Source of the DNA: Bacteroidales bacterium
Lineage (GTDB): Bacteria > Bacteroidota > Bacteroidia > Bacteroidales > VadinHA17
Direction of reading: 5' to 3'
Assembly (NCBI GenBank): GCA_024762655.1
Contig: JANTHB010000001.1
Location: 84,015 to 124,400, forward strand
Length of the DNA stretch: 40,386 nucleotides
Both the position numbers and the translations under genes were made by a program. This document shows, piece after piece, positions 4,992-33,573 of the stretch (positions are counted from its first letter, which is position 1; the number at the start of each line of letters is the position of its first letter). The notes under the pieces are model-generated. The model did no database searches, was not told where the DNA came from, and worked only from the letters and a program-made list of their open reading frames with translations.

Positions 4992-6737
4992 ATGCGTTTC
5001 GACTATTTTCAGTACAAGATAGAAGTTAAAAATCTGAAGTTTACTACCGACGAGGGGATGGTTCATCCCAGGACCGCCCTCATCACACTGCTGGGTGAGA
5101 AAGGGGAAACGCTGGGGGTGGAGATATTCGGATACCGGGAGGTCAGTGACTGGTACCGGCAGATCGAAGCAGGAGAACCGCTCAATATGAACCAGTGCTA
5201 TGTCCGGGATTTCTCGCTGGCAGCTTACCGGAGCGCCCGGAAAATGGACAAGAAAGAATATGTTAAGATCGCCGGCATTGCAGCCCGGAATGCTTTTTTC
5301 GAATCCCGTATGATTACGGACTTTTCGTTTGCCGAATTTGCAGGCGGTGATGCTGACTTTGAATTTACCCATTTTTCCGGCGGACCGGTCTCTTTCGCTT
5401 CAGCCCGTTTCGGAGACGGGAACCCGGTGTTCAACAATGTGCTGTTCCGCAACGGCAATGTGGATTTCGGTAATGCGGTGTTCGGTGCCGGGATCAAAGG
5501 ATTTAAAAATTCAGTCTTCCGGAACGGTAAAAAGGATTTCCAGTATTGCGATTTCGGTCCCGGGGAGGTGAGCTTTAACAATACGGAGTTTAATTCGGGG
5601 GAAGTGTCTTTTATCAATGCCGTTTTCGGAGAGGGGAATGTGAGTTTCAAGATTGCCCGCATCAAAGGAGGAAAGGTGGATTTTCACTATGCCAAGTTCG
5701 GAAAAGGAAACATTAGTTTCGAGCGGGTGGAATTCGGAGATTCACGGGTCGATTTCCGGGCGGTGGAGTTCAACCAGGGACGGGTGAACTTCAACCGTTC
5801 GCTTTTCGGGGAAGGGGATATAACGTTTGAAGGCAGCGAACTGCCTTCGGGCCGGTTTAGCTTCAAACGGGCCGACATGGGAAAAGGAATGGTCAGCTTT
5901 GAGCTGGTTAACTATGCCGGCGCCGAGTTGTTTTTTGAGAAAACCAGCTTCGGGGAGGGGAATGTCTCTTTTCTGGGCGGACAGTTCGACTTGTTGTCGT
6001 TGCAATCGTGCCATCTGGATCACTATTTCGACCTGCGTGTGGCGTACTGCCGTTACCTGGACCTGTCCGACACCATTGCCCGGGATATTATCGATCTGAA
6101 ACCCTACGACCAGGATGTGAAGGTCCGTGTGCTTAACCTTTCCGGTATGCGTCTGCTGGGACGGATATACATCGATTGGGAGGAAAACCATGTGAAGGAT
6201 ATTATCCGGAACCAGGACTCCGGCCATAAGCTCAAATCCGAGCAGTTCAGAATCCTGAAGGAGAATTACAGCGTTACCGGTCAGTATACCGACGAAGACA
6301 AGGCTTATGTGTGGTTTAAGCGCTTTGAAGCCCTGGATGAACTGGAGTCGCAAAAGAAAAAGGGCTTTTTCCCTGCCCTCGGGGCATATCTGCAGTATGC
6401 CTTCAAGTGGGTGGTGTTTGATAAAATCGGCCTGTATGCCACCGACCCGGTGCGGGTGTTGGGCTCGATGATTGTGGCTTACGTGATATTTTCATTGATT
6501 TATTATGTTCTCCCTTTTGTTGCCAATACGCGGATCGTTTCATCCCTGGGAGATCCCGACAAACTTTCCCGTGTGGCGGTGGCTTTTTACCACAGCGCCA
6601 TCACTTTTCTGACCATTGGCTACGGCGACTATTACCCGTCGGGGGCCATCCGCTGGATCTCTGGCATTGAGGGATTTATCGGACTGTTTATGATGTCTTA
6701 TTTTACGGTGGCTTTTGTACGTAAAATACTTCGTTAG
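4992..6737 (+). CDS. Two-TM potassium-channel-like protein with a 12-residue Phe/Gly repeat solenoid
   Basis: 581 residues. Residues 1-109 are a mixed N-terminal region. Residues 110-337 are 19 consecutive 12-residue units of approximate form [S/D]F-x4-F-G-x-G-x-V. Further beta-helix-like sequence (YLDLSDTIARDI, LNLSGMRLLG) leads to an amphipathic linker (EQFRILKENY, WFKRFEALDEL) of the kind seen before the membrane part of pentapeptide-repeat channels. The membrane part has TM1 at about 487-510, the selectivity filter TIGYGDY at 541-547 and TM2 at about 556-578, then ends. This is an Ion_trans_2-type pore that would assemble as a tetramer. The solenoid is presumably cytoplasmic and may sense or dock a partner. 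The repeat period of 12 differs from the classical 5. Confidence 0.85.
   Translation: MRFDYFQYKIEVKNLKFTTDEGMVHPRTALITLLGEKGETLGVEIFGYREVSDWYRQIEAGEPLNMNQCYVRDFSLAAYRSARKMDKKEYVKIAGIAARNAFFESRMITDFSFAEFAGGDADFEFTHFSGGPVSFASARFGDGNPVFNNVLFRNGNVDFGNAVFGAGIKGFKNSVFRNGKKDFQYCDFGPGEVSFNNTEFNSGEVSFINAVFGEGNVSFKIARIKGGKVDFHYAKFGKGNISFERVEFGDSRVDFRAVEFNQGRVNFNRSLFGEGDITFEGSELPSGRFSFKRADMGKGMVSFELVNYAGAELFFEKTSFGEGNVSFLGGQFDLLSLQSCHLDHYFDLRVAYCRYLDLSDTIARDIIDLKPYDQDVKVRVLNLSGMRLLGRIYIDWEENHVKDIIRNQDSGHKLKSEQFRILKENYSVTGQYTDEDKAYVWFKRFEALDELESQKKKGFFPALGAYLQYAFKWVVFDKIGLYATDPVRVLGSMIVAYVIFSLIYYVLPFVANTRIVSSLGDPDKLSRVAVAFYHSAITFLTIGYGDYYPSGAIRWISGIEGFIGLFMMSYFTVAFVRKILR
5319..6002 (+). repeat. 19 tandem 36-base units encoding 12-residue repeats
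   Basis: Every unit keeps Phe or a hydrophobic residue at positions 2 and 7 and usually V/I at 12, with Gly around positions 8 and 10; examples are DFGNAVFGAGIK, SFINAVFGEGNV and NFNRSLFGEGDI. There is no insertion or deletion over 19 units. The DNA has diverged between units, so the register is kept by selection on protein structure rather than by recent duplication. Confidence 0.9.
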
Positions 6738-6745
6738 AATTTTTT

Positions 6746-6753
6746 TATTTTTG
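6746..6753 (+). promoter_or_regulatory. Candidate -7 box TATTTTTG for the DUF819 gene
   Basis: The octamer fits TAnnTTTG and lies 39 bases before the ATG at 6785, just after the stop of the channel gene. I do not see a good -33 TTTG at the right distance. Confidence 0.3.
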
Positions 6754-6784
6754 GGCAACCGAAAACCATACAACCTGATATCCT

Positions 6785-8050
6785 ATGATGATTTTACTGC
6801 TGGTTCTTTTTTATATTTTGTTTCCTGCCCTGATCATCTATGCCACCTGTAACAATACGCTGCTCAACCGGATCGGCTCGGTGGTGATCGCCTATGCCGT
6901 AGGTCTGCTGATGGGTAACATCGGCTTGTTGCCGGGGATGACCGATGCTTACCATCTCCTGCTGCAGGGGAATGTGGCTCTTCCCGCCGGTCAGGCCCAG
7001 GCATTGTTCGAACAGGGGAAGATCACAGCCGGTGATCTGATGCATAACAAAGTTGCTAACGTACAGGATATGATTACCACCATCACCATTCCGCTGGCGA
7101 TCCCTTTGCTCTTGTTCTCCCTGAATGTGAAAAAATGGTTACGCCTGGCCGGGAGCACTTTTCTGTCCCTGGTGCTGGCGCTCACGTCGGTTTTTGTGGT
7201 GGTGGTAGCGGGCTTTTTTATTTTTAAGGATAAGATCCCCGAGTTGGGGAAGATTGCAGGGATGTTGATCGGCATTTATTCGGGTGGGACCCCAAACCTG
7301 GCATCTATCAAGGAAGCCCTGAATGTGGATCCGGATATATTCATCATGACCCATACGGCCGATCTGGTGATCGGCGCCATCTGCCTGTTGTTCCTGCTGA
7401 CGGTGGCCCAGCGGTTTTTTCTGCTGTTTTTGCCCCCCTTCCGGCAGTCTGCCGATAAAGAAACCACCGAGCGTCTTACCCGCGAAGCACAGGAGATGGA
7501 TCGTTACAAAGGGATCTTTTCACGGGAAGTGTTCCCGAAGCTGTTGTTGGCTGTTCTCCTGTCGGTACTCATCCTTGCCATAGGCGCCGGACTGGGCATG
7601 CTGGTACCCAAAAGATCCATGATGGCCGTCGTGATCCTGACCATCACCACCCTGGGCATTCTCTTCTCCCTGATCCCCTATGTCAACAAAATCAAAAAAA
7701 CCTTCCAGACGGGCATGTACCTGATCATTGTGTTCTGTCTGGTGGTTTCTTCCATGGCCAACCTCCGGGGTATGATCAATGTTGAATACCTGGACCTGTT
7801 GTTGTATGTGGCCCTGGTTTATTTCGGTTCCCTCTTTATTCACATCCTGCTTTCCATGATCTTCCGGCTCGATGCCGATACGGTCATTATCACTTCAACA
7901 GCCATGATCTATTCCCCTCCCTTTGTGCCGGTAGTGGCTGCCGCCCTGAAAAACCGCGATATCATTATCTCGGGACTTACCACCGGAATTATCGGATATG
8001 TGGTCGGGAATTACCTGGGGATCTTTACTGGATTTCTGCTGGGAGGATAA
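6785..8050 (+). CDS. DUF819 family integral membrane protein
   Basis: 421 residues, almost wholly hydrophobic, with roughly ten to twelve predicted membrane spans in two halves around a charged loop at about residues 220-245 (RQSADKETTERLTREAQEMD). The motif IYSGGTPNLASIKEAL, at the end of the first half, and the pattern DADTVIITSTAMIYSPPFVPVVAAALKN in the second half (only fragments of it count as motif: TVIITSTA and PPFVPVVA) match what I know of DUF819/YjcL-like proteins. These are presumed transporters of unknown substrate. It stands alone between the channel gene and a long non-coding stretch; a -7-like box precedes it. Co-transcription with the channel is possible because only 47 bases separate them. 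Confidence 0.75.
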   Translation: MMILLLVLFYILFPALIIYATCNNTLLNRIGSVVIAYAVGLLMGNIGLLPGMTDAYHLLLQGNVALPAGQAQALFEQGKITAGDLMHNKVANVQDMITTITIPLAIPLLLFSLNVKKWLRLAGSTFLSLVLALTSVFVVVVAGFFIFKDKIPELGKIAGMLIGIYSGGTPNLASIKEALNVDPDIFIMTHTADLVIGAICLLFLLTVAQRFFLLFLPPFRQSADKETTERLTREAQEMDRYKGIFSREVFPKLLLAVLLSVLILAIGAGLGMLVPKRSMMAVVILTITTLGILFSLIPYVNKIKKTFQTGMYLIIVFCLVVSSMANLRGMINVEYLDLLLYVALVYFGSLFIHILLSMIFRLDADTVIITSTAMIYSPPFVPVVAAALKNRDIIISGLTTGIIGYVVGNYLGIFTGFLLGG

Positions 8051-26046: not shown

Positions 26047-26077
26047 TTGCTTAAAAAAGGATTATTAAATATGTTTG
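26047..26077 (+). promoter_or_regulatory. Promoter of the aromatic amino acid operon
   Basis: TTG at 26047-26049, 20 bases, then TATGTTTG at 26070-26077. This fits the Bacteroidota consensus TTTG-N19/20-TAnnTTTG apart from the first T. Transcription would begin near 26083-26086, leaving about 10 bases before the leader-peptide ATG at 26096. Confidence 0.7.
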
Positions 26078-26095
26078 CATTGTAAAACAATTTTT

Positions 26096-26146
26096 ATGGC
26101 TTTTGGTTTTACATATTTTTATTTTTACTACAGATTGATCGTCTGA
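26096..26146 (+). CDS. Phe/Tyr-rich leader peptide of the aromatic operon
   Basis: A 16-codon frame encodes MAFGFTYFYFYYRLIV and ends in TGA at 26144-26146. Codons 3, 5, 8 and 10 are Phe (TTT) and codons 7, 9, 11 and 12 are Tyr (TAT, TAT, TAC, TAC), so half of the peptide consists of the two amino acids whose committed enzymes, prephenate dehydratase and prephenate dehydrogenase, begin and end the operon. It lies between the promoter and a terminator directly before pheA. There is no Shine-Dalgarno sequence, which is normal for the phylum. The role is regulatory: ribosomes would stall on these codons when charged tRNA-Phe or tRNA-Tyr is scarce. Chance occurrence in AT-rich DNA is the alternative, but position and structure argue against it. 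Confidence 0.85.
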   Translation: MAFGFTYFYFYYRLIV

Positions 26147-26182
26147 CGGGATTTTTATATGTTTTATTGAAACACAATCCCG
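26147..26182 (+). promoter_or_regulatory. Antiterminator of the aromatic-operon attenuator
   Basis: CGGGATT (26147-26153), starting at the base after the leader stop codon, is complementary to AATCCCG (26176-26182), the 5' arm of the terminator. A ribosome stalled at codons 3-12 leaves it free to pair and block the terminator. A ribosome that reaches the stop codon covers it, so the terminator forms. Confidence 0.75.
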
Positions 26183-26207
26183 GTCATACACCGGGATTTT
26201 TTTTTTT
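26176..26207 (+). terminator. Intrinsic terminator of the aromatic-operon attenuator
   Basis: AATCCCGG (26176-26183) pairs perfectly with CCGGGATT (26191-26198) around a 7-base loop, and T residues run from 26197 to 26207. It ends 13 bases before the pheA ATG at 26221, so it cannot serve an upstream gene on this strand and must be a leader terminator. Confidence 0.9.
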
Positions 26208-26220
26208 AACAGGAACGATC

Positions 26221-27072
26221 ATGGAGATAAGAAAAAAAAAGAGGATTGCAATACAAGGAGGTTTCGGAGCTTTTCACGAAATGGCGGCAATCTATTACTT
26301 CGAGCCTGAAGAGATAGAGGTCATTCCAAGGAATACCTTTGATGACCTTCTGAAGTCGCTGAAGGAACGCCAGGCCGACTATGGAATTCTGGCTATAGAG
26401 AACTCCATTGCGGGGAGTATCCTGCCGAATTATAACCTCCTCCGTGAGTCCAATAAAAAGATTGTGGGAGAGATTTTCCTGAGGATCCGGCACAATCTGG
26501 TGGCCTTACCCGGCCAGAAAATCGAAGATCTCCGGGAAGTGTATTCTCATCCGATGGCGATTCTGCAGTGCCAGACTTTTTTTGAGAAATATCCCGGGAT
26601 CCGTTTGATCGAAAGTGTTGATACGGCCTTATCGGCCATGGATATACATGAAAAACAATTACGGGGCATAGGGGCTATTGCCAGTGAGCTGGCAGCACAA
26701 AAATATGAATTGAATATCCTGGCCTCCGGCATTGAGACCAACCCGGTGAATTATACCCGTTTTCTGGTCGTGAGTGAAAACGGAAACCATACGCTCGATG
26801 AAAATGTGGACCATAAATCATCCTTATATTTTACGTTATCCCACAAAATAGGAAGTCTTTCCAAGATCCTTTCCATTTTATCTTTCTATGATATGAACCT
26901 GACCAAAATACAATCCCTGCCGGTGATCGGAAAAGAATGGGAGTATCAGTTTTATATAGATCTGGTATTTGATGATTTCGAATTGTATCAGCAGGCTTAT
27001 CATGCCATTAAACCCTTTACGGGTGAGTTGGGTGAACTGGGGATATATCCTGTAGGCAAAAAAATTATCTGA
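26221..27072 (+). CDS. pheA: Prephenate dehydratase
   Basis: 283 residues from the ATG at 26221. Longer frames starting in the terminator are not credible. The catalytic domain (about 8-183) has QGGFGAFHE, AIENSIAGS and the hallmark TRF triplet at 179-181 (NYTRFLVV). An ACT domain follows (about 200-280: GSLSKILSILSFYDMNLTKIQSLPV), implying feedback inhibition by phenylalanine. It converts prephenate to phenylpyruvate, the committed step to Phe. There is no chorismate mutase domain, which is fused to the DAHP synthase two genes downstream. It is first in a seven-gene operon and sits directly behind the Phe/Tyr attenuator. The aminotransferase gene begins 2 bases after its stop. Confidence 0.96.
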   Translation: MEIRKKKRIAIQGGFGAFHEMAAIYYFEPEEIEVIPRNTFDDLLKSLKERQADYGILAIENSIAGSILPNYNLLRESNKKIVGEIFLRIRHNLVALPGQKIEDLREVYSHPMAILQCQTFFEKYPGIRLIESVDTALSAMDIHEKQLRGIGAIASELAAQKYELNILASGIETNPVNYTRFLVVSENGNHTLDENVDHKSSLYFTLSHKIGSLSKILSILSFYDMNLTKIQSLPVIGKEWEYQFYIDLVFDDFELYQQAYHAIKPFTGELGELGIYPVGKKII

Positions 27073-27074
27073 TC

Positions 27075-28226
27075 ATGGAACGGGCCAGACGTTTGCAGAA
27101 AACACAGGAATACTACTTCTCACGGAAACTCGAGGAGATAAGAAGGATGTCGGAGACCGGCACACCGGTGATCAACCTGGGTATAGGGAACCCTGATCTG
27201 CCTCCTCCTGAAAAAGTGATCCGGAAATTGCTGGAGATAGCCGTTATGCCGGATGTGCACGGGTATCAGTCTTACCGGGGGCTTGGGGCTTTGAGAAAAG
27301 CATATGCCCGCTGGTATGAAAAGGCCTATGATGTATCGTTGGATCCCGACCGCGAGGTGATCCCTCTGGTAGGTTCCAAGGAAGGGATATTTTACCTTTC
27401 CATGGCTTTTCTCAACCCCGGAGACAAAGCCTTGGTGCCCGATGTGGGGTATCCTGCCTATCGGTCGGTGACAGAAATGGTGGAGGCCATACCTGTCACG
27501 TATAATATTTCGGAACATACAGGATGGTATCCTGATTTCAGGGAACTGGAACAACTGGATCTGACGGGGGTGAAGCTCATGTGGGTTAATTATCCCAATA
27601 TGCCCAGCGGGAAACCGGCCGGCCGGGAACTGTTCCGGAAACTGGTGGATTTCGGAATGGAGCATGATATCCTGATCTGTCATGACAACCCCTATAGCTT
27701 TATTCTGAATGATAAGCCCCTGAGCATCCTTTCGGAGCCCGGAGCGCGTAAAACGGCTGTAGAACTGAATTCCATGAGCAAGGCGTACAACATGGCCGGG
27801 TGGCGCATGGGTATGCTGGCTGGTGATCCCGGGTTCCTGGATCCGGTGTTTACCGTGTTGAGCAATGTTGAATCCGGAATATTCAAACCGCTGCAACTGG
27901 CCACGGTCGAGGCGATACAGGCCCCGGACGAATGGTTCGGAGCATTGAATAAGGAATACCGTAGAAGGAAAGAACTGGTGTTTGCCCTGTTTGACAAACT
28001 GGGATGTACCTATGAGACGGAATCCCACGGATTGTTTGTGTGGGCCAAAACCCCTGGAGGAGTGGATGCTTTTGATTTCACGGACAGAATGCTGTATGAT
28101 GTCCGGGTTTTTATCACCCCCGGAGGTATTTTCGGCAACAACGGAAAGAGCTTTGTCAGGGTGTCCCTTTGTGAGGAGACACGTGTATTGCAGGAAGCAT
28201 TGGAAAGAATTGAAAATATTATTTAA
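27075..28226 (+). CDS. PLP-dependent class I/II aminotransferase, likely aromatic
   Basis: 383 residues. Family motifs: INLGIGNPDLPPP at the N-terminus, VNYPNMPSG with Asn175, CHDNPYS with Asp204, and the PLP-binding lysine Lys236 in NSMSKAYNMAGWRMG, followed by the phosphate-binding Arg. The fold is type I, of the aspartate/tyrosine aminotransferase group. From its place between pheA and the DAHP synthase, the likely job is the last step to Phe and Tyr, transamination of phenylpyruvate and hydroxyphenylpyruvate (or of prephenate to arogenate). Substrate choice cannot be read from sequence. The spacer to the next gene is 11 bases. Confidence 0.93.
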   Translation: MERARRLQKTQEYYFSRKLEEIRRMSETGTPVINLGIGNPDLPPPEKVIRKLLEIAVMPDVHGYQSYRGLGALRKAYARWYEKAYDVSLDPDREVIPLVGSKEGIFYLSMAFLNPGDKALVPDVGYPAYRSVTEMVEAIPVTYNISEHTGWYPDFRELEQLDLTGVKLMWVNYPNMPSGKPAGRELFRKLVDFGMEHDILICHDNPYSFILNDKPLSILSEPGARKTAVELNSMSKAYNMAGWRMGMLAGDPGFLDPVFTVLSNVESGIFKPLQLATVEAIQAPDEWFGALNKEYRRRKELVFALFDKLGCTYETESHGLFVWAKTPGGVDAFDFTDRMLYDVRVFITPGGIFGNNGKSFVRVSLCEETRVLQEALERIENII

Positions 28227-28237
28227 TTTATAGGATC

Positions 28238-29323
28238 ATGGAATACGAAATTGAACTGGAAGAACTGGATTGCACGAAAGAACTGGGTGAGAAACCGGTT
28301 ATCGTGGCAGGTCCCTGCAGTGCCGAGTCGGAGAAGCAGGTCATGGAGACGGCGGGTAAACTGAAAGAGATGGGGATCTCGATTTATCGCGCCGGGGTGT
28401 GGAAGCCGCGGACACGACCCGGAAGTTTCGAAGGAATGGGGCCGAAAGCCCTGCCCTGGCTCAGAAAAGTAAAAAGAGAACTGGGGCTGAAAATTGCCAT
28501 CGAAGTGGCACAGCCTGCACATATCTTCGAAGCGCTGAAATACGATATTGATATCTTCTGGATCGGCGCCCGGACAACGGTCAACCCGTTTTTCGTGCAG
28601 GATCTGGCCGATGCGATGAAGGGCCTGGATAATCCGGTATTTGTTAAGAACCCGGTCAACCCGGATCTGAACCTGTGGATCGGCGCTTTTGAACGCCTCA
28701 GCCGTGCAGGGATCAAAAAACTGGCTGCCATCCACCGGGGTTTTTCCTACTTCGGCCTGACAAGATTCAGGAATGTGCCCCAGTGGGAAATTCCCATCGA
28801 ACTGCACAGACGGTTGCCCAAACTGCCTATCCTGACGGACCCCAGCCATATCTGCGGCCGGCGTGATCTGCTGAAAGAAGTGTCTCAGGAAGCCATGGAC
28901 CTTAACTTTACCGGTTTGTTCATTGAATCGCACATCAACCCCGATGTGGCATTGAGCGACAAAGATCAGCAACTGACGCCGGACGGTCTGAAAAAAATGC
29001 TGGACGAACTGGTGATCAGAAAAGAGGAAATCCTTGATAAAGATCTGTTAAGTAAGCTGCAGCGTTACAGAAAACAGATAGACATGCTGGATGACGAACT
29101 GATGGATGTGCTGGAGAAAAGGATGCAAATCGCCGAAAAGATCGGAGCGTATAAGAAAGAGAACGATATCACCATTTTCCAGACTACCCGCTGGAATGAG
29201 ATTGTCGGAAAGAGATTGATACAGGCTGTGGAGAAAAGACTGAGTGAAGAGTTTGTGGATAAAGTGTTTCGGGCCATTCACCAAGAGTCTATCAAGAAAC
29301 AGAATAAGATCATGAACGAATAA
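28238..29323 (+). CDS. Bifunctional DAHP synthase / chorismate mutase
   Basis: 361 residues. The N-terminal domain (about 18-262) is a DAHP synthase of the KDO8P-synthase-like type: AGPCSAES with metal-binding Cys27, KPRTRPGSFEGMG (56-68), KNPVNPD and DPSHICGRRD (201-210). It condenses phosphoenolpyruvate and erythrose 4-phosphate, the first step of the shikimate pathway. The C-terminal domain (about 268-355) is an AroQ-type chorismate mutase with RYRKQIDMLDDELMDVLEKR and AEKIGAYKKE. It makes prephenate for PheA and TyrA, and such fused mutase domains can also serve as the feedback sensor. The order of first and branch-point steps in one chain is normal for this phylum. Next gene 14 bases away. 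Confidence 0.95.
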   Translation: MEYEIELEELDCTKELGEKPVIVAGPCSAESEKQVMETAGKLKEMGISIYRAGVWKPRTRPGSFEGMGPKALPWLRKVKRELGLKIAIEVAQPAHIFEALKYDIDIFWIGARTTVNPFFVQDLADAMKGLDNPVFVKNPVNPDLNLWIGAFERLSRAGIKKLAAIHRGFSYFGLTRFRNVPQWEIPIELHRRLPKLPILTDPSHICGRRDLLKEVSQEAMDLNFTGLFIESHINPDVALSDKDQQLTPDGLKKMLDELVIRKEEILDKDLLSKLQRYRKQIDMLDDELMDVLEKRMQIAEKIGAYKKENDITIFQTTRWNEIVGKRLIQAVEKRLSEEFVDKVFRAIHQESIKKQNKIMNE

Positions 29324-29337
29324 ATGATCCGGGAGGC

Positions 29338-30378
29338 ATGAAAACATATCAGCTACATACCGCGACGGGATCGTCGGATATCCTGATCGGTGAACCTTTT
29401 GAGAATCTGCAGGAGTACACTGCCGGGAAAAGGACCGTGATCCTTACCGATGATCAGGTCTTCGCCCTCCACGGGGAACGTTTCCCCGATATTCCCGTTG
29501 TTCGGATTCCTCAGGGAGAACAGGCAAAATCTCTCGGAAGAGCCACCTTGCTCTATCAGGAGCTTATTCGTCTCGGGGTAGATCGTTCTGATATGTTGGT
29601 GGCTGTCGGCGGAGGAGTGATCTGTGACCTGGGAGGTTTTGTTGCCACTACTTTTCAGCGGGGTATAGGTCTCTCGTTTGTACCGACCACCCTGCTGGCA
29701 CAGGTAGATGCTGCCATAGGCGGAAAAAACGGCATTAACCTGGGGGAGTATAAAAATATGGTAGGCACCTTCAGACAACCTTCTTTTGTGCTGATTGATC
29801 CGGCTTTTCTGAAAACCTTGCCGGAAGACGAGTTTGTTTCAGGCCTGGCAGAGATCGTGAAATACGGGTTGATCAGTGATCCCGGCATACTGACACTTAT
29901 AGAAGGGAAAACGCCCCGCGAGATATCCCGGGATGCGGGTCTGCTGGGCGAACTGATAGAGCGGAGTGTCCGGGCCAAAGTGGCGGTGGTCAGCCAGGAT
30001 GAAGAAGATCATGGTATGCGCCGCATTCTTAATTTCGGACATACCTACGGTCATGGGATTGAACGGTTATATGATCTGCCGCACGGGAAAGCGGTGGCCT
30101 ATGGCATGGTGGTGGCAGCGGATATCTCCATACAACTGGGACTGGCAGAGGATATGCTTGGAAAACGTATCTTTGCCTTGCTGAAAAACCTGGACTTGTT
30201 GCCGGATATTAAGCCTGACCAGGAAAAAGTGATGGGTCTTATCAGCCATGATAAGAAAAAGAAAGGTGAGGAAATTCCTTTTGTATTACTGAAAGATGCC
30301 GGAGAGACCGTCATCAGGCCGTTGTCACCGGAGGAAATTATGGATCTGTTGAAAAATATCAGGTTGTTTACAATATAA
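29338..30378 (+). CDS. aroB: 3-dehydroquinate synthase
   Basis: 346 residues. NAD-binding and catalytic motifs are all present: VAVGGGVICDLGGFVAT (about 88-103), PTTLLAQVDAAIGGK (116-130), NMVGTFRQP, GLAEIVKYGLI with metal-ligand Glu172 and Lys175, and NFGHTYGHGIE with metal-ligand histidines. It cyclises DAHP to 3-dehydroquinate with NAD+ and a divalent metal. It lies 14 bases after the DAHP synthase/mutase gene and 3 bases before aroA. The length is normal for the family. Confidence 0.96.
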   Translation: MKTYQLHTATGSSDILIGEPFENLQEYTAGKRTVILTDDQVFALHGERFPDIPVVRIPQGEQAKSLGRATLLYQELIRLGVDRSDMLVAVGGGVICDLGGFVATTFQRGIGLSFVPTTLLAQVDAAIGGKNGINLGEYKNMVGTFRQPSFVLIDPAFLKTLPEDEFVSGLAEIVKYGLISDPGILTLIEGKTPREISRDAGLLGELIERSVRAKVAVVSQDEEDHGMRRILNFGHTYGHGIERLYDLPHGKAVAYGMVVAADISIQLGLAEDMLGKRIFALLKNLDLLPDIKPDQEKVMGLISHDKKKKGEEIPFVLLKDAGETVIRPLSPEEIMDLLKNIRLFTI

Positions 30379-30381
30379 ACT

Positions 30382-31632
30382 ATGAATATCACGGTAGAAC
30401 CTTCTTTTCTGAAAGGCACGGTACGTGCCCCGGCATCCAAGAGTGTGATGATACGGGTGCTGGCTGCCGGATTACTGAGCAGGGGAGAGACGCGGATTCG
30501 TTATCCCAGCACCTGTGACGATGCCCTGACAGCCCGCCAGGTGATCCGTTCGCTCGGAGCGGAGGTGTCGGAAGAGACCGATGAATGGTTAATAAAGGGA
30601 GGGATCTCTTTGCTGGAAGATGTGCTGGATGTCGGAGAATCGGGACTCACGGCCCGTCTTTTTACCCCGTTGGCAGCGGTGTTATCACAACCCATGACCA
30701 TAACGGGCAGGGGATCCCTGATGAAACGCTCCATGGACATGATGACTGAACCGTTGCAACAGTTGGGTGTGACGGTGGAAACAAACAAAGGTTATTTGCC
30801 TGTCAAGGTACATGGGCCTCTGCAGGGAGGGAGGGTCCGGGTGGACGGCTCGAAAAGTTCACAGTTCCTCACAGGCCTGCTTATGAGCCTGCCGCTGGCA
30901 GAAAAGGATTCAACAATCCTGGTGGATAATCTGAGGAGCTTGCCTTACATTGACCTGACCCTGCGCGTGATGGAACAATTTGGTGTGAAATGCGAACACA
31001 CCGGCTATGAACATTTTTTCGTGCCTTCAAACCAGGAATATCAGGCTGCGGAAACGGATATTGAAGGCGACTGGAGCGGGGCTGCTTTCCTGCTGGCAGC
31101 GGCAGCCATCGCCGGAGACCTTAAGGTGACGGGCCTCGATCCCGAAAGCCGTCAGGCCGACCGGAAGATTATGGAAGCCTTGGGCGCAGCAGGTGTGGAA
31201 GCCGGCATGACACAGGAATACGTGTACATAAAAAAAAGTGACATACATCCTTTCTCGTTTGATATTACCCATTGTCCCGACCTTGCTCCACCGCTGGTAT
31301 GCCTGGCGGCTTATGCGCAGGGGGAGACCGTGATACGGGGTGCCGGCCGCCTGTACGAAAAAGAAAGTAACCGCGCGCTCACCTTACGGGAAGAAGCAGG
31401 CAATCTGGGCGTGCGTATCGATTTGGACGGTGACACGATGGTGATCCATGGAGGCCGCGTGGCAGGCGGTGGGAGCCATGCTCATCAGGATCATCGCATA
31501 GCCATGTTTGCCGCCACCATGGCCCTCCGCGCAGAAAATCCCGTGACGATACACGGAACAGAGTGCGTGAGTAAATCCTATCCGAACTTCTTTAATGATC
31601 TGAAAAAACTGGGAGGAAAGCTCTATGAATAA
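30382..31632 (+). CDS. aroA: 5-enolpyruvylshikimate-3-phosphate synthase
   Basis: 416 residues. APASKSVMIRVLAAG near the start holds the PEP/shikimate-binding Lys20, DGSKSSQFLTGLLMS matches the second conserved loop, and CPDLAPPLVCLAAYAQG and HQDHRIAMFAA carry the catalytic Asp and the DHR triplet. The loop that is LxGNAGTAMR in common class I enzymes reads VGESGLTARLF here (84-94). That is a variant I associate with Bacteroidota and archaea; it may affect glyphosate binding. It transfers enolpyruvyl to shikimate 3-phosphate. The 3' end overlaps aroC by 8 bases, suggesting coupling. Steps from dehydroquinate to shikimate 3-phosphate (aroD/Q, aroE, aroK) are not in the window. Confidence 0.95.
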   Translation: MNITVEPSFLKGTVRAPASKSVMIRVLAAGLLSRGETRIRYPSTCDDALTARQVIRSLGAEVSEETDEWLIKGGISLLEDVLDVGESGLTARLFTPLAAVLSQPMTITGRGSLMKRSMDMMTEPLQQLGVTVETNKGYLPVKVHGPLQGGRVRVDGSKSSQFLTGLLMSLPLAEKDSTILVDNLRSLPYIDLTLRVMEQFGVKCEHTGYEHFFVPSNQEYQAAETDIEGDWSGAAFLLAAAAIAGDLKVTGLDPESRQADRKIMEALGAAGVEAGMTQEYVYIKKSDIHPFSFDITHCPDLAPPLVCLAAYAQGETVIRGAGRLYEKESNRALTLREEAGNLGVRIDLDGDTMVIHGGRVAGGGSHAHQDHRIAMFAATMALRAENPVTIHGTECVSKSYPNFFNDLKKLGGKLYE

Positions 31633-32608
31633 ATTCGGCAGATTATTTTCAGTGACTATCTTCGGAGAATCGCATGGTGCCGGCGTCGGTATCGTGATCG
31701 ATGGGGTCCCACCGGGAATTTCTCTTGTCCCGGAAGATTTCCTGGAGGACATGGCCCGCCGCCGTAGCGGTGCTAAAGGAACTACCCCACGCAGCGAACC
31801 GGATGTGCCGGAGATACTCAGTGGGGTGTTTAAGGATAATACCACCGGCGCCCCGCTGACGATCCTGATAAAAAATACGAATGTGCGCTCCGGCGATTAT
31901 GACCGACAGGTTGAAATGCCCCGGCCCGGACATGCCGATTTTGTGGCGATGAAAAAATACAAAGAATTCAGTGACTATCGTGGGGGAGGGCATTTTTCCG
32001 GACGGTTGACGGCTTCTCTTGTGGCGGCCGGTGTGATCGCAAAAAAAATATTGAATGGAGTGGAGATCAGTGCAACGCTGACAGAAGCAGGAGGATCCGC
32101 AGACATAGAGACTGCAGTTCAAAAAGCTGTGGCGGAAAAGGATTCGATAGGAGGGATCGTGGAGTGCCGGGTGAAGGGATTGCCCGCAGGCCTGGGAGAG
32201 CCTTTCTTTGATTCGACAGAGGCATTACTCAGCCATGCGGTTTTTTCCATCCCGGCCATCAAGGGCATAGAGTTCGGAGCGGGCTTTGCTGCGGCAAAAA
32301 TGAGGGGTAGCGAACACAATGACCCGATCGTGGATGAGACCGGAAAAACGGCAACCAATCATGCCGGAGGAATCAACGGAGGCATTACCAACGGCAATGA
32401 ACTGGTGTTCCGCATTGTCGTGAAACCAACCTCCAGTATCGGGAAGACACAACATACCCTGAATGTGAAAACAGGGAAAACGGAAGATCTCCTGATCGAA
32501 GGCCGGCATGATGCCTGCATCGCCCTGCGGGTGCCTCCCGTCCTTGAAGCCGTGACAGCCATCACCCTGGCCGACCTGTGGCTGGTGAATAAAGCATATA
32601 ATGAATAA
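31625..32608 (+). CDS. aroC: Chorismate synthase
   Basis: 327 residues, a little shorter than the usual 350-390. The signature FGESHGAGVGIVIDGVPPG, with catalytic His17, opens the protein. Also present are MARRRSGAKGTTPRSEPD, NTNVRSGDYD, DYRGGGHFSGRLTASLVAAG, EHNDPIVDE and NHAGGINGGITNG. It removes phosphate and a proton from EPSP to give chorismate, using reduced FMN. No flavin reductase gene is nearby. It overlaps aroA by 8 bases. The 137-base gap to tyrA is the longest in the operon. Confidence 0.95.
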   Translation: MNKFGRLFSVTIFGESHGAGVGIVIDGVPPGISLVPEDFLEDMARRRSGAKGTTPRSEPDVPEILSGVFKDNTTGAPLTILIKNTNVRSGDYDRQVEMPRPGHADFVAMKKYKEFSDYRGGGHFSGRLTASLVAAGVIAKKILNGVEISATLTEAGGSADIETAVQKAVAEKDSIGGIVECRVKGLPAGLGEPFFDSTEALLSHAVFSIPAIKGIEFGAGFAAAKMRGSEHNDPIVDETGKTATNHAGGINGGITNGNELVFRIVVKPTSSIGKTQHTLNVKTGKTEDLLIEGRHDACIALRVPPVLEAVTAITLADLWLVNKAYNE

Positions 32609-32745: not shown

Positions 32746-33573
32746 ATGAGTGAGACACAGAAGCAGAAAACGGAAAAACATAATATTAAAAAGATCCTGA
32801 TTCTCGGGGCCGGGAAAATGGGGCTCTGGCTGGCCGAATCTTTGTGCCTGGATTATGAGGTGGCTATCTATGACAAGGTTCCCGAAAAGATGAAATATGT
32901 CTTCCGTACCGTACGCATTAACGGGCCGGAAGAGATCACGGAGTTCGACCCGGATCTACTCATCAATGCCGTTAACCTGCAAAAAACCGTAGCTGTCTTT
33001 GACTGGGTAATTCCTTATCTGCCGGAAAAGACCATCCTGTCTGATATTGCCTCGGTGAAAAACGGACTGAAAAAATATTATGCCGGATGTGCCCGCCGTT
33101 TTGTTTCAACCCACCCTATGTTTGGACCTACCTTCGGGAATATCAAGGATCTGAGCAGGGAGAATGCGGTGATTATTTCGGAGTCTTGCGAAGAAGGAAA
33201 GGCTTTTTTCCGGTCTTTTTATGAAAACCTGCATCTGCATATCTTTGAGTATTCTTTTGATCAGCACGACCAGACCATTGCCTATTCCTTGTCGGTACCT
33301 TTTGCCTCTACCATGGTTTTTGCTGCCTGTATGGTGAAGATGGAAGTGCCGGGGACAACCTTTAAAAAACATCTGAATATTGCAACAGGCCTGCTGTCGG
33401 AAGATAAATACCTGTTGTCTGAAATTTTACTGAATCCGTTTACCCTGCCGCAGTTGGAAAGAATTCATGAGAGCCTTGCCGACCTGATGGAACTGATTAA
33501 AAATCGTGACAACGCTGGCATTCATGCATTTCTTCAGATGCTTCGTGAAAATGTTGGCTTGGAAAAGGAGTAA
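32746..33573 (+). CDS. tyrA: Prephenate dehydrogenase
   Basis: 275 residues. After a charged N-terminal tail comes the Rossmann motif ILILGAGKMGLWLAE (about 17-31) and an acidic residue at the end of strand two (AIYDK), which favours NAD over NADP. DIASVKNGLKKY and STHPMFGPTFGN are the typical TyrA active-site segments, and DQTIAYSLSVPFAST with its downstream helices fits the dimerisation domain. There is no ACT or mutase domain. It oxidises prephenate to 4-hydroxyphenylpyruvate for Tyr synthesis. It is last in the aromatic operon and convergent with the CGGC gene, whose stop is 17 bases away. Confidence 0.93.
   Translation: MSETQKQKTEKHNIKKILILGAGKMGLWLAESLCLDYEVAIYDKVPEKMKYVFRTVRINGPEEITEFDPDLLINAVNLQKTVAVFDWVIPYLPEKTILSDIASVKNGLKKYYAGCARRFVSTHPMFGPTFGNIKDLSRENAVIISESCEEGKAFFRSFYENLHLHIFEYSFDQHDQTIAYSLSVPFASTMVFAACMVKMEVPGTTFKKHLNIATGLLSEDKYLLSEILLNPFTLPQLERIHESLADLMELIKNRDNAGIHAFLQMLRENVGLEKE

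Follow-up and report, generated by a model that had tools for sequence, protein, structure and literature searches.

Comparative sequence evidence for a probable classical attenuator with a mixed Phe/Tyr leader peptide upstream of pheA in a Bacteroidales bacterium and its relatives

To our knowledge, the pheA leader of enteric bacteria carries Phe codons and no Tyr codons. Enterobacterial thr and ilv leaders read the codons of more than one end product, and the Bacteroid-trp RNA motif is linked to trp genes. The E. coli and Salmonella pheA leader (RF01859, Phe_leader) shares with the locus described here a leader peptide, a terminator and an antiterminator in front of pheA, and pheA is named among the operons under attenuation (PMC1183508). 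Bacteroid-trp (RF01692) is, like our element, a candidate cis-regulatory RNA of Bacteroidetes (PMC2864571). Merino's predictions, tabulated in 2005, include a putative attenuator before the B. thetaiotaomicron run pheA > hisHb > aroA-aroQ > tyrA (PMC1173090, Table 7), which shares its gene-order type and phylum with our locus; in the accessible part of that source the entry is a listing, without leader peptide, codons, spacing or comparison. For Flavobacterium psychrophilum, a 2021 study described 5' elements preceding both pheA and hisG, the pheA element being conserved in other Flavobacteriaceae and having no Rfam hit, and 'strong clues' of leader-peptide attenuation were seen for amino-acid operons; a Phe/Tyr leader and its geometry are absent from the accessible part of that description (PMC9723704). 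Short frames in B. thetaiotaomicron 5' UTRs have also been called reminiscent of leader peptides (PMC7366714). We found nothing on a Bacteroidetes Phe leader in the accessible parts of PMC4833913 or PMC10272879, and the accessible parts of the open-access literature searched describe neither a mixed Phe/Tyr leader nor the spacing ruler set out below.

We followed up a sequence-only reading of a 40,386-nucleotide stretch of a Bacteroidales genome (the window), which had proposed a Phe/Tyr-responsive, ribosome-mediated attenuator in front of an aromatic operon. Its coordinates for the leader, the CGGGATTTTT repeats, the complementary arm, the 11-T terminator and the 13-base gap before pheA proved exact base for base. 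The features of the locus are as follows.

26047..26077, + strand: Bacteroidetes-type promoter, with TTG at 26047-26049 and the -7 box TATGTTTG at 26070-26077, which fits TANNTTTG
26096..26146, + strand: leader ORF, MAFGFTYFYFYYRLIV plus TGA (from the sequence and similar leaders in relatives)
26111..26116, + strand: region 1, ACATAT within the leader codons, with 26157-26162 as pairing partner (MFE folds)
26147..26156, + strand: region 2, the predicted antiterminator 5' arm, CGGGATTTTT (sequence and pairing measurements)
26157..26162, + strand: ATATGT, partner segment of region 1 (folds)
26176..26184, + strand: region 3, AATCCCGGT, with region 2 (antiterminator) and region 4 (terminator) as alternative partners
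26190..26207, + strand: predicted intrinsic terminator, comprising region 4, ACCGGGATT (26190-26198), and an 11-T tract at 26197-26207 (sequence, terminator scan and fold)
26221..27072, + strand: pheA, prephenate dehydratase (PF00800, E 2.2e-55)
27075..28226, + strand: class I/II aminotransferase, its specificity left broad (PF00155)
28238..29323, + strand: DAHP synthase fused to a type II chorismate mutase (PF00793 and PF01817)
29338..30378, + strand: aroB, 3-dehydroquinate synthase (TIGR01357, above cut-off)
30382..31632, + strand: aroA, EPSP synthase (TIGR01356, above cut-off)
31625..32608, + strand: aroC, chorismate synthase (TIGR00033 and NF003793, above cut-off)
32746..33573, + strand: tyrA-like prephenate dehydrogenase, 137 nt past aroC (PF02153, above cut-off)

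pheA is the first gene of this seven-gene shikimate/Phe/Tyr run. The best NCBIfam models for the aminotransferase were those of LL-diaminopimelate aminotransferase, all under cut-off, and aroC matched its family models as two separate segments, some profile positions being passed over around residue 157. We infer that all seven genes, including the tyrA-like gene, lie on one transcript; given such a transcript, a single promoter would supply the common pathway and both its Phe and Tyr ends. The promoter, which the sequence-only reading had called a consensus promoter, deserves that name as a Bacteroidetes type but not as a sigma-70 type, for which a scan found no promoter at 26047-26077.

The leader runs from an ATG at 26096-26098 through 26143 and ends at a TGA at 26144-26146. 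Eight of its 16 codons specify Phe (codons 3, 5, 8 and 10) or Tyr (codons 7, 9, 11 and 12), forming a run at 26102-26131, and the ORF is presumably translated. Region 2 starts directly 3' of the stop, with 15 nt between the last Tyr codon and the arm. A search of both strands of the window found two copies of CGGGATTTTT, at 26147-26156 and 26192-26201 (at least two matches also appeared in 4/100 whole-window shuffles, a comparison that ignores their arrangement), and the arm complementary to both, AATCCCG, occupies 26176-26182. The terminator scan called a hairpin at 26176-26198, the terminator fold (26165-26210) had a z of -4.1, and 13 bases separate the T tract from the pheA ATG at 26221. 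The competing hairpin of regions 2 and 3 (2:3; 26144-26182) folded at z -2.4 and reached -8.9 kcal/mol, its small inner hairpin included, compared with about -13.4 for the terminator; since 2:3 is the weaker of the two, the switch would have to be kinetic. Tested against shuffles of its own linker, the window's 2:3 pairing was borderline (p 0.06), and its 1:2 helix was weak (fold z -1.0).

To place the locus among its relatives, we read the regions upstream of pheA in three samples of genomes. The family sample comprised 79 genomes searched, 61 with a pheA match and 57 read (four left out), the order sample 118 searched, 49 with a match and 44 read (five left out), and the named sample 80 genome records, of which Bacteroidales are the nearest to the window. 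From the 180 family, order and named loci we removed L001, a duplicate of L002, and six with less than 200 nt upstream, leaving 173; L235, L260-L265 and L291-L295 lie outside the analysed set. A dense leader, defined as a short frame with at least six Phe/Tyr per 10 codons, stood 5' of pheA in 154/173 loci compared with 66/3,460 dinucleotide shuffles (1.9%), as expected from the sequence-only reading, which had proposed looking for such a frame in relatives. Removal of eight near-identical regions, some of which came from overlap between the named records and the other samples, left the leader in 147/165, and other intergenic upstream regions of the named loci had a dense frame in 8/225 cases. 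With the terminator detector used, leader and terminator were found together in 144/173 loci, and 14 leader frames had no terminator. The TANNTTTG motif, known as the sigma-A -7 box (PMC9723704), lay within 70 nt 5' of the leader start in 121/152 elements, compared with 113/1,520 shuffles.

At the phylum scale, 118 genomes were searched and 102 had a match, the best 30 loci of which were read, 29 of them new. Among these best loci, leader and terminator occurred together in 22/29, made up of 20/22 loci of the same class and 2/7 of other classes; judged from the named records, the class in question is probably Bacteroidia. The arrangement had been thought unusual in Bacteroidota, a view that we abandon: it is widespread across the class, and it was foreshadowed by the accessible parts of PMC1173090 (Table 7) and PMC9723704.

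The leader also follows the composition of the gene run. Scoring 76 named loci for a dense leader and for an aminotransferase/DAHP gene adjoining pheA, we found 65 with both, eight with neither and three discordant (L123, L174 and L149). In L149, the aminotransferase starts barely past the distance limit set. The leader of L123 (Prevotellaceae; 5859-6990), one of the eight control intergenic positives, precedes a methyltransferase gene that itself precedes pheA, in an aromatic run whose first gene is not pheA; this arrangement indicates a leader tied to the beginning of the run, not to pheA as such. The 'neither' class is not clean, because three of its eight loci (L107, L128 and L140) do carry a Phe/Tyr frame, either a weaker one or one farther away.

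Most of the 19/173 regions without a dense leader have a recognizable circumstance; L123, described above, is one of the 19. L062, L076, L107 and L128 carry frames of 5/10 Phe/Tyr, just under the threshold, and L140 has a leader-like frame (8/10) with a terminator-like tail about 320 nt upstream, beyond the stretch scanned. L075, L080, L081, L082 and L084 belong to a single family genus and make up part of it; in these loci, pheA has no leader and lies 3' of a gene that we take from its sequence to be leuB-like, which suggests capture of pheA by a leucine gene run. Another frame ends shortly before pheA in L174, L178 and L180, and the aminotransferase or DAHP match is absent downstream in L117, L119 and L160. 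For L088 and L097 we found no explanation. The contig of L107 is labelled Lentisphaerae, while its pheA is 55% identical to that of the window and the 5/10 frame lies upstream of it, a combination suggesting mis-binning or transfer.

We next considered which amino acids such leaders would read. Within the clusters of 90 dereplicated elements, the leader frame holds 779 Phe/Tyr codons and the other two frames 234 and 241, a bias that T-richness alone fails to explain. At least two Phe and at least two Tyr codons occur in 137/142 elements, with means of 5.1 and 3.9, and in four aligned leader groups exchanges between Phe and Tyr make up 34/55 of the changes at Phe/Tyr columns (15/27, 7/13 and 12/13 in three groups and 0/2 in the window genus). 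A leader sensing one amino acid only, or translation in general, could have gained its second residue through the one-base kinship of Phe and Tyr codons (TTY/TAY) in a T-rich stretch, and the lack of Tyr in 3/142 elements is in keeping with this. We consider such a reading unlikely, if the most serious of the alternatives, since nearly all elements hold both residues in numbers and since prephenate dehydrogenase is part of the window's run, was matched 3' of pheA in 42/80 named loci, and was confirmed in seven more where an extra ORF was checked. Codons and gene content together thus point to dual control by Phe and Tyr, the response that the sequence-only reading had proposed.

To evaluate the alternative helices across relatives, we asked whether region 2 fits its own region 3 more stably than those of other loci. 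In the 90 dereplicated elements, the own partner gave a mean of -11.7 kcal/mol compared with -8.3 for other loci's (0/5,000 permutations) and fell in the best tenth in 41/90. Measured from the last Phe/Tyr codon, 2:3 pairing reached p 0.05 by linker shuffling in 110/152 elements and fell short of it in 42/152. An earlier measure that began 9 nt before the stop (p 0.05 for 2:3 in 68/142 and for 1:2 in 23/142) was dropped because arms lying inside the leader frame escaped it, and for 1:2 the shuffle test was superseded by the cross-locus test and by individual helices. Sequences of the window genus pair in 98% of the 2:3 arm, with zero double changes, and are thus too invariant for covariation to be read except across loci.

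For 1:2, the pairing of leader codons with a segment at or after region 2, own partners gave -14.1 compared with -10.1 (0/5,000; best tenth in 35/90); a reversed-sequence control also differed (-11.7 vs -10.5, 0/5,000, best tenth in 13/90), so part of this cross-locus signal is not pairing. The helix taken from L027 and followed in the 17 sequences of one genus (A2) pairs in 97.8% of cells, and 2/8 of its pairs are doubly changed, with double changes in eight cells covering six different sequences; 221/500 shuffles reached that number of doubly changed pairs and 0/500 reached eight cells. Sliding this helix by -2 left 82% of cells paired with zero double changes, and sliding it by +2 gave four doubly changed pairs at 57% paired. 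The helix taken from L020 and followed in eight sequences of another genus (A3) has double changes in 3/12 pairs (0/500 shuffles), and for two of the three it is L020 that differs from all the other sequences. The six-pair helix of the window genus (A4, seven sequences) is 83% paired with one double change, and 205/500 shuffles did as well. L013 and L053, relatives chosen for strong 1:2 pairing, fold at z -5.6 and -5.3.

Covariation of the stems in relatives, which had been proposed as a check, is borne out by the cross-locus 2:3 partner test, and the double changes in A2 and A3 are in keeping with it for 1:2. The description of the element as a minimal two-structure switch needs amendment: the comparison points, at the level of predicted pairing, to the classical three-helix design (1:2, 2:3 and 3:4) in relatives. 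The third helix that they add, 1:2, is weak in the window and its genus, where the two-structure description may still apply.

The position of region 2 follows a simple rule. It starts 5-17 nt past the last Phe/Tyr codon in 148/152 elements, compared with 27% of shuffles, and in the 90 dereplicated elements the standard deviation of its distance is 3.0 nt from that codon and 12.0 nt from the stop. The stop codon, which the sequence-only reading had used as the reference, does not serve as one in general; in 72/152 elements it lies over 3 nt downstream of the point where region 2 begins. Judged from these distances, the antiterminator arm keeps its spacing to the last Phe/Tyr codon and not to the stop codon. 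This ruler was not seen in trp and his leaders analysed with the same code, where 2:3 reached p 0.05 in 1/21 and 7/23, respectively, at scattered distances.

We then modelled a stalled ribosome in 87/90 elements, using an 11-nt leading edge, which is the E. coli value, and transcription that has just passed region 3. While the A site was still at earlier codons in the run, mean 2:3 pairing was 88-95% of its maximum; it was 76% at the last Phe/Tyr codon, 46% one codon on and 12% two codons on. In 57/87 elements, the first codon at which less than half of the pairing was left lay one or two positions past the last Phe/Tyr codon; it lay at or before that codon in 20/87 and later in 10/87. In the window, modelled 2:3 stayed intact with the A site at codons 3-13 and was nearly lost from codon 14, the expected number of pairs dropping from 6.7 to 0.5 between Arg13 and Leu14. 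By this computed geometry, a ribosome at the regulatory codons would leave 2:3 free to form and a ribosome past them would block it. Attenuation theory predicts higher sensitivity when the control region consists mostly of regulatory codons (PMC1183508); most codons in the control region of the pheA leader are of this kind.

We also considered that the terminator and antiterminator could be run by a riboswitch, a T-box or an RNA-binding protein, with the leader frame incidental. The earlier B. thetaiotaomicron listing, at least in the accessible part of its source, rested on a predicted attenuator structure alone and would fit such control (PMC1173090, Table 7). Yet neither the window nor nine related loci gave an Rfam match at gathering threshold, and relatives retain the codon type, the frame and the distance to the last Phe/Tyr codon, whereas their stop positions and linkers differ; we regard control of this kind as very improbable. 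Against RF01859 itself, the best score in the window was 15.8 bits (gathering score 55), and RF01692 had no gathering match in the window or the nine related loci, three of which are trpE loci. A permissive E-value gave 16 weak window matches, all below gathering and discounted as evidence, the best being PsrR1 (E 0.0089), followed by Trp_leader (0.012, 23.4 bits) and including Phe_leader (3.8, 15.8 bits). Least probable of all is a gene for a functional small protein that simply ends at an ordinary terminator: a promoter and a terminator of its own would suit such a short frame, but it is mainly the Phe/Tyr cluster that is kept, with ends and lengths varying and region 2 lying inside or outside the frame, and the leaders track the downstream gene run.

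Together, the conserved leader and covarying stems support the reading of the element as a classical transcription attenuator, mediated by the ribosome, that would read charged tRNA-Phe and tRNA-Tyr, to which we assign a probability of roughly 0.93. In the proposed mechanism, transcription would begin just past the TANNTTTG box, and a ribosome would load on the leader ORF almost immediately. When Phe or Tyr is scarce, the ribosome would pause at a Phe or Tyr codon, of which the leader has eight, and its leading edge would halt just before region 2 (26147-26156), which would be free to pair with region 3 (26176-26182) once this is transcribed; the 3:4 terminator would then come too late, and pheA to tyrA would be transcribed. 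When both amino acids are ample, the ribosome would move one or two codons beyond the last Tyr codon and cover region 2, so that the terminator forms. If the leader were untranslated, region 1 could pair with the segment past region 2, leaving region 3 free for the terminator. We infer both the stalling response and the sufficiency of either amino acid alone from codon content and geometry.

We further propose, as the somewhat favoured general account, that the element is a two-input switch used across the class Bacteroidia. Every Phe/Tyr codon of the run would be an equivalent stall site, so that a shortage of either Phe or Tyr alone would open the operon. The length of a ribosome footprint between the last Phe/Tyr codon and the antiterminator arm would act as the ruler that sets the switch point, and the stop codon would therefore be free to move, often past the start of the arm. 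Some lineages would use the unit in tandem: two Phe/Tyr leader-terminator units in series were found in 9/169 scanned pheA loci, the window having one, and such pairs may act as a two-stage switch. The tandem loci are L014, L017, L025, L029, L032, L090, L098, L121 and L171; the first unit of L014 is weak, and L017 and L025 are near-identical.

Matching leaders often precede his and trp genes in the same bacteria. His-rich leaders (at least four His per 10 codons, within 500 nt) were found in 22/25 hisG regions (shuffles, 0/500), and Trp-rich leaders (at least three Trp) in 21/25 trpE regions (shuffles, 1/500). The genome of the window itself has the Trp leader MNRTHTCWWWLNENRMLS and a terminator 5' of trpE (L272; G000:C5, reverse strand), and, some 510-560 nt 5' of hisG (L232; G000:C87, reverse strand), the His leader MIRTCHHHHFFVSCR with a terminator after it; this leader lies beyond the 500-nt limit and hence outside the 22/25. 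Among 24 leuA regions, members of the window genus had no Leu/Ile/Val-rich leader, and a few order members did (such as L253 and L256; a count without shuffle control).

On the comparative evidence, the aromatic gene run of the whole class, gut Bacteroides included, is very probably under the control of mixed Phe/Tyr leader translation. The natural variants offer a clean test of attenuation theory, as the last regulatory codon closes the control region and the stop moves freely. An attenuator of this type implies coupling of transcription and translation in Bacteroidia, a group in which Shine-Dalgarno sequences go unrecognised by the ribosome (PMC9976891).

Compared with the enteric pheA leader, the window's leader mixes Phe and Tyr codons, its genes span the shikimate, Phe and Tyr branches, and its promoter is of the Bacteroidetes type. 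Reading several end products, as the thr and ilv leaders do, would be common to both settings; the amino acids and pathways differ. The Salmonella mgtCBR leader resembles the tandem relatives in its two short ORFs and serial attenuators, although mgtCBR is not an amino-acid biosynthesis operon and the window has one copy (PMC3641672). The attenuator listed for B. thetaiotaomicron, as far as the accessible part of its source describes it, is probably the same element as the window's (PMC1173090). Because the arrangement recurs in many related bacteria, we regard it as a well-supported new example of a classical switch and not a new kind; the pheA leader is new as a described member, with a neat geometry.
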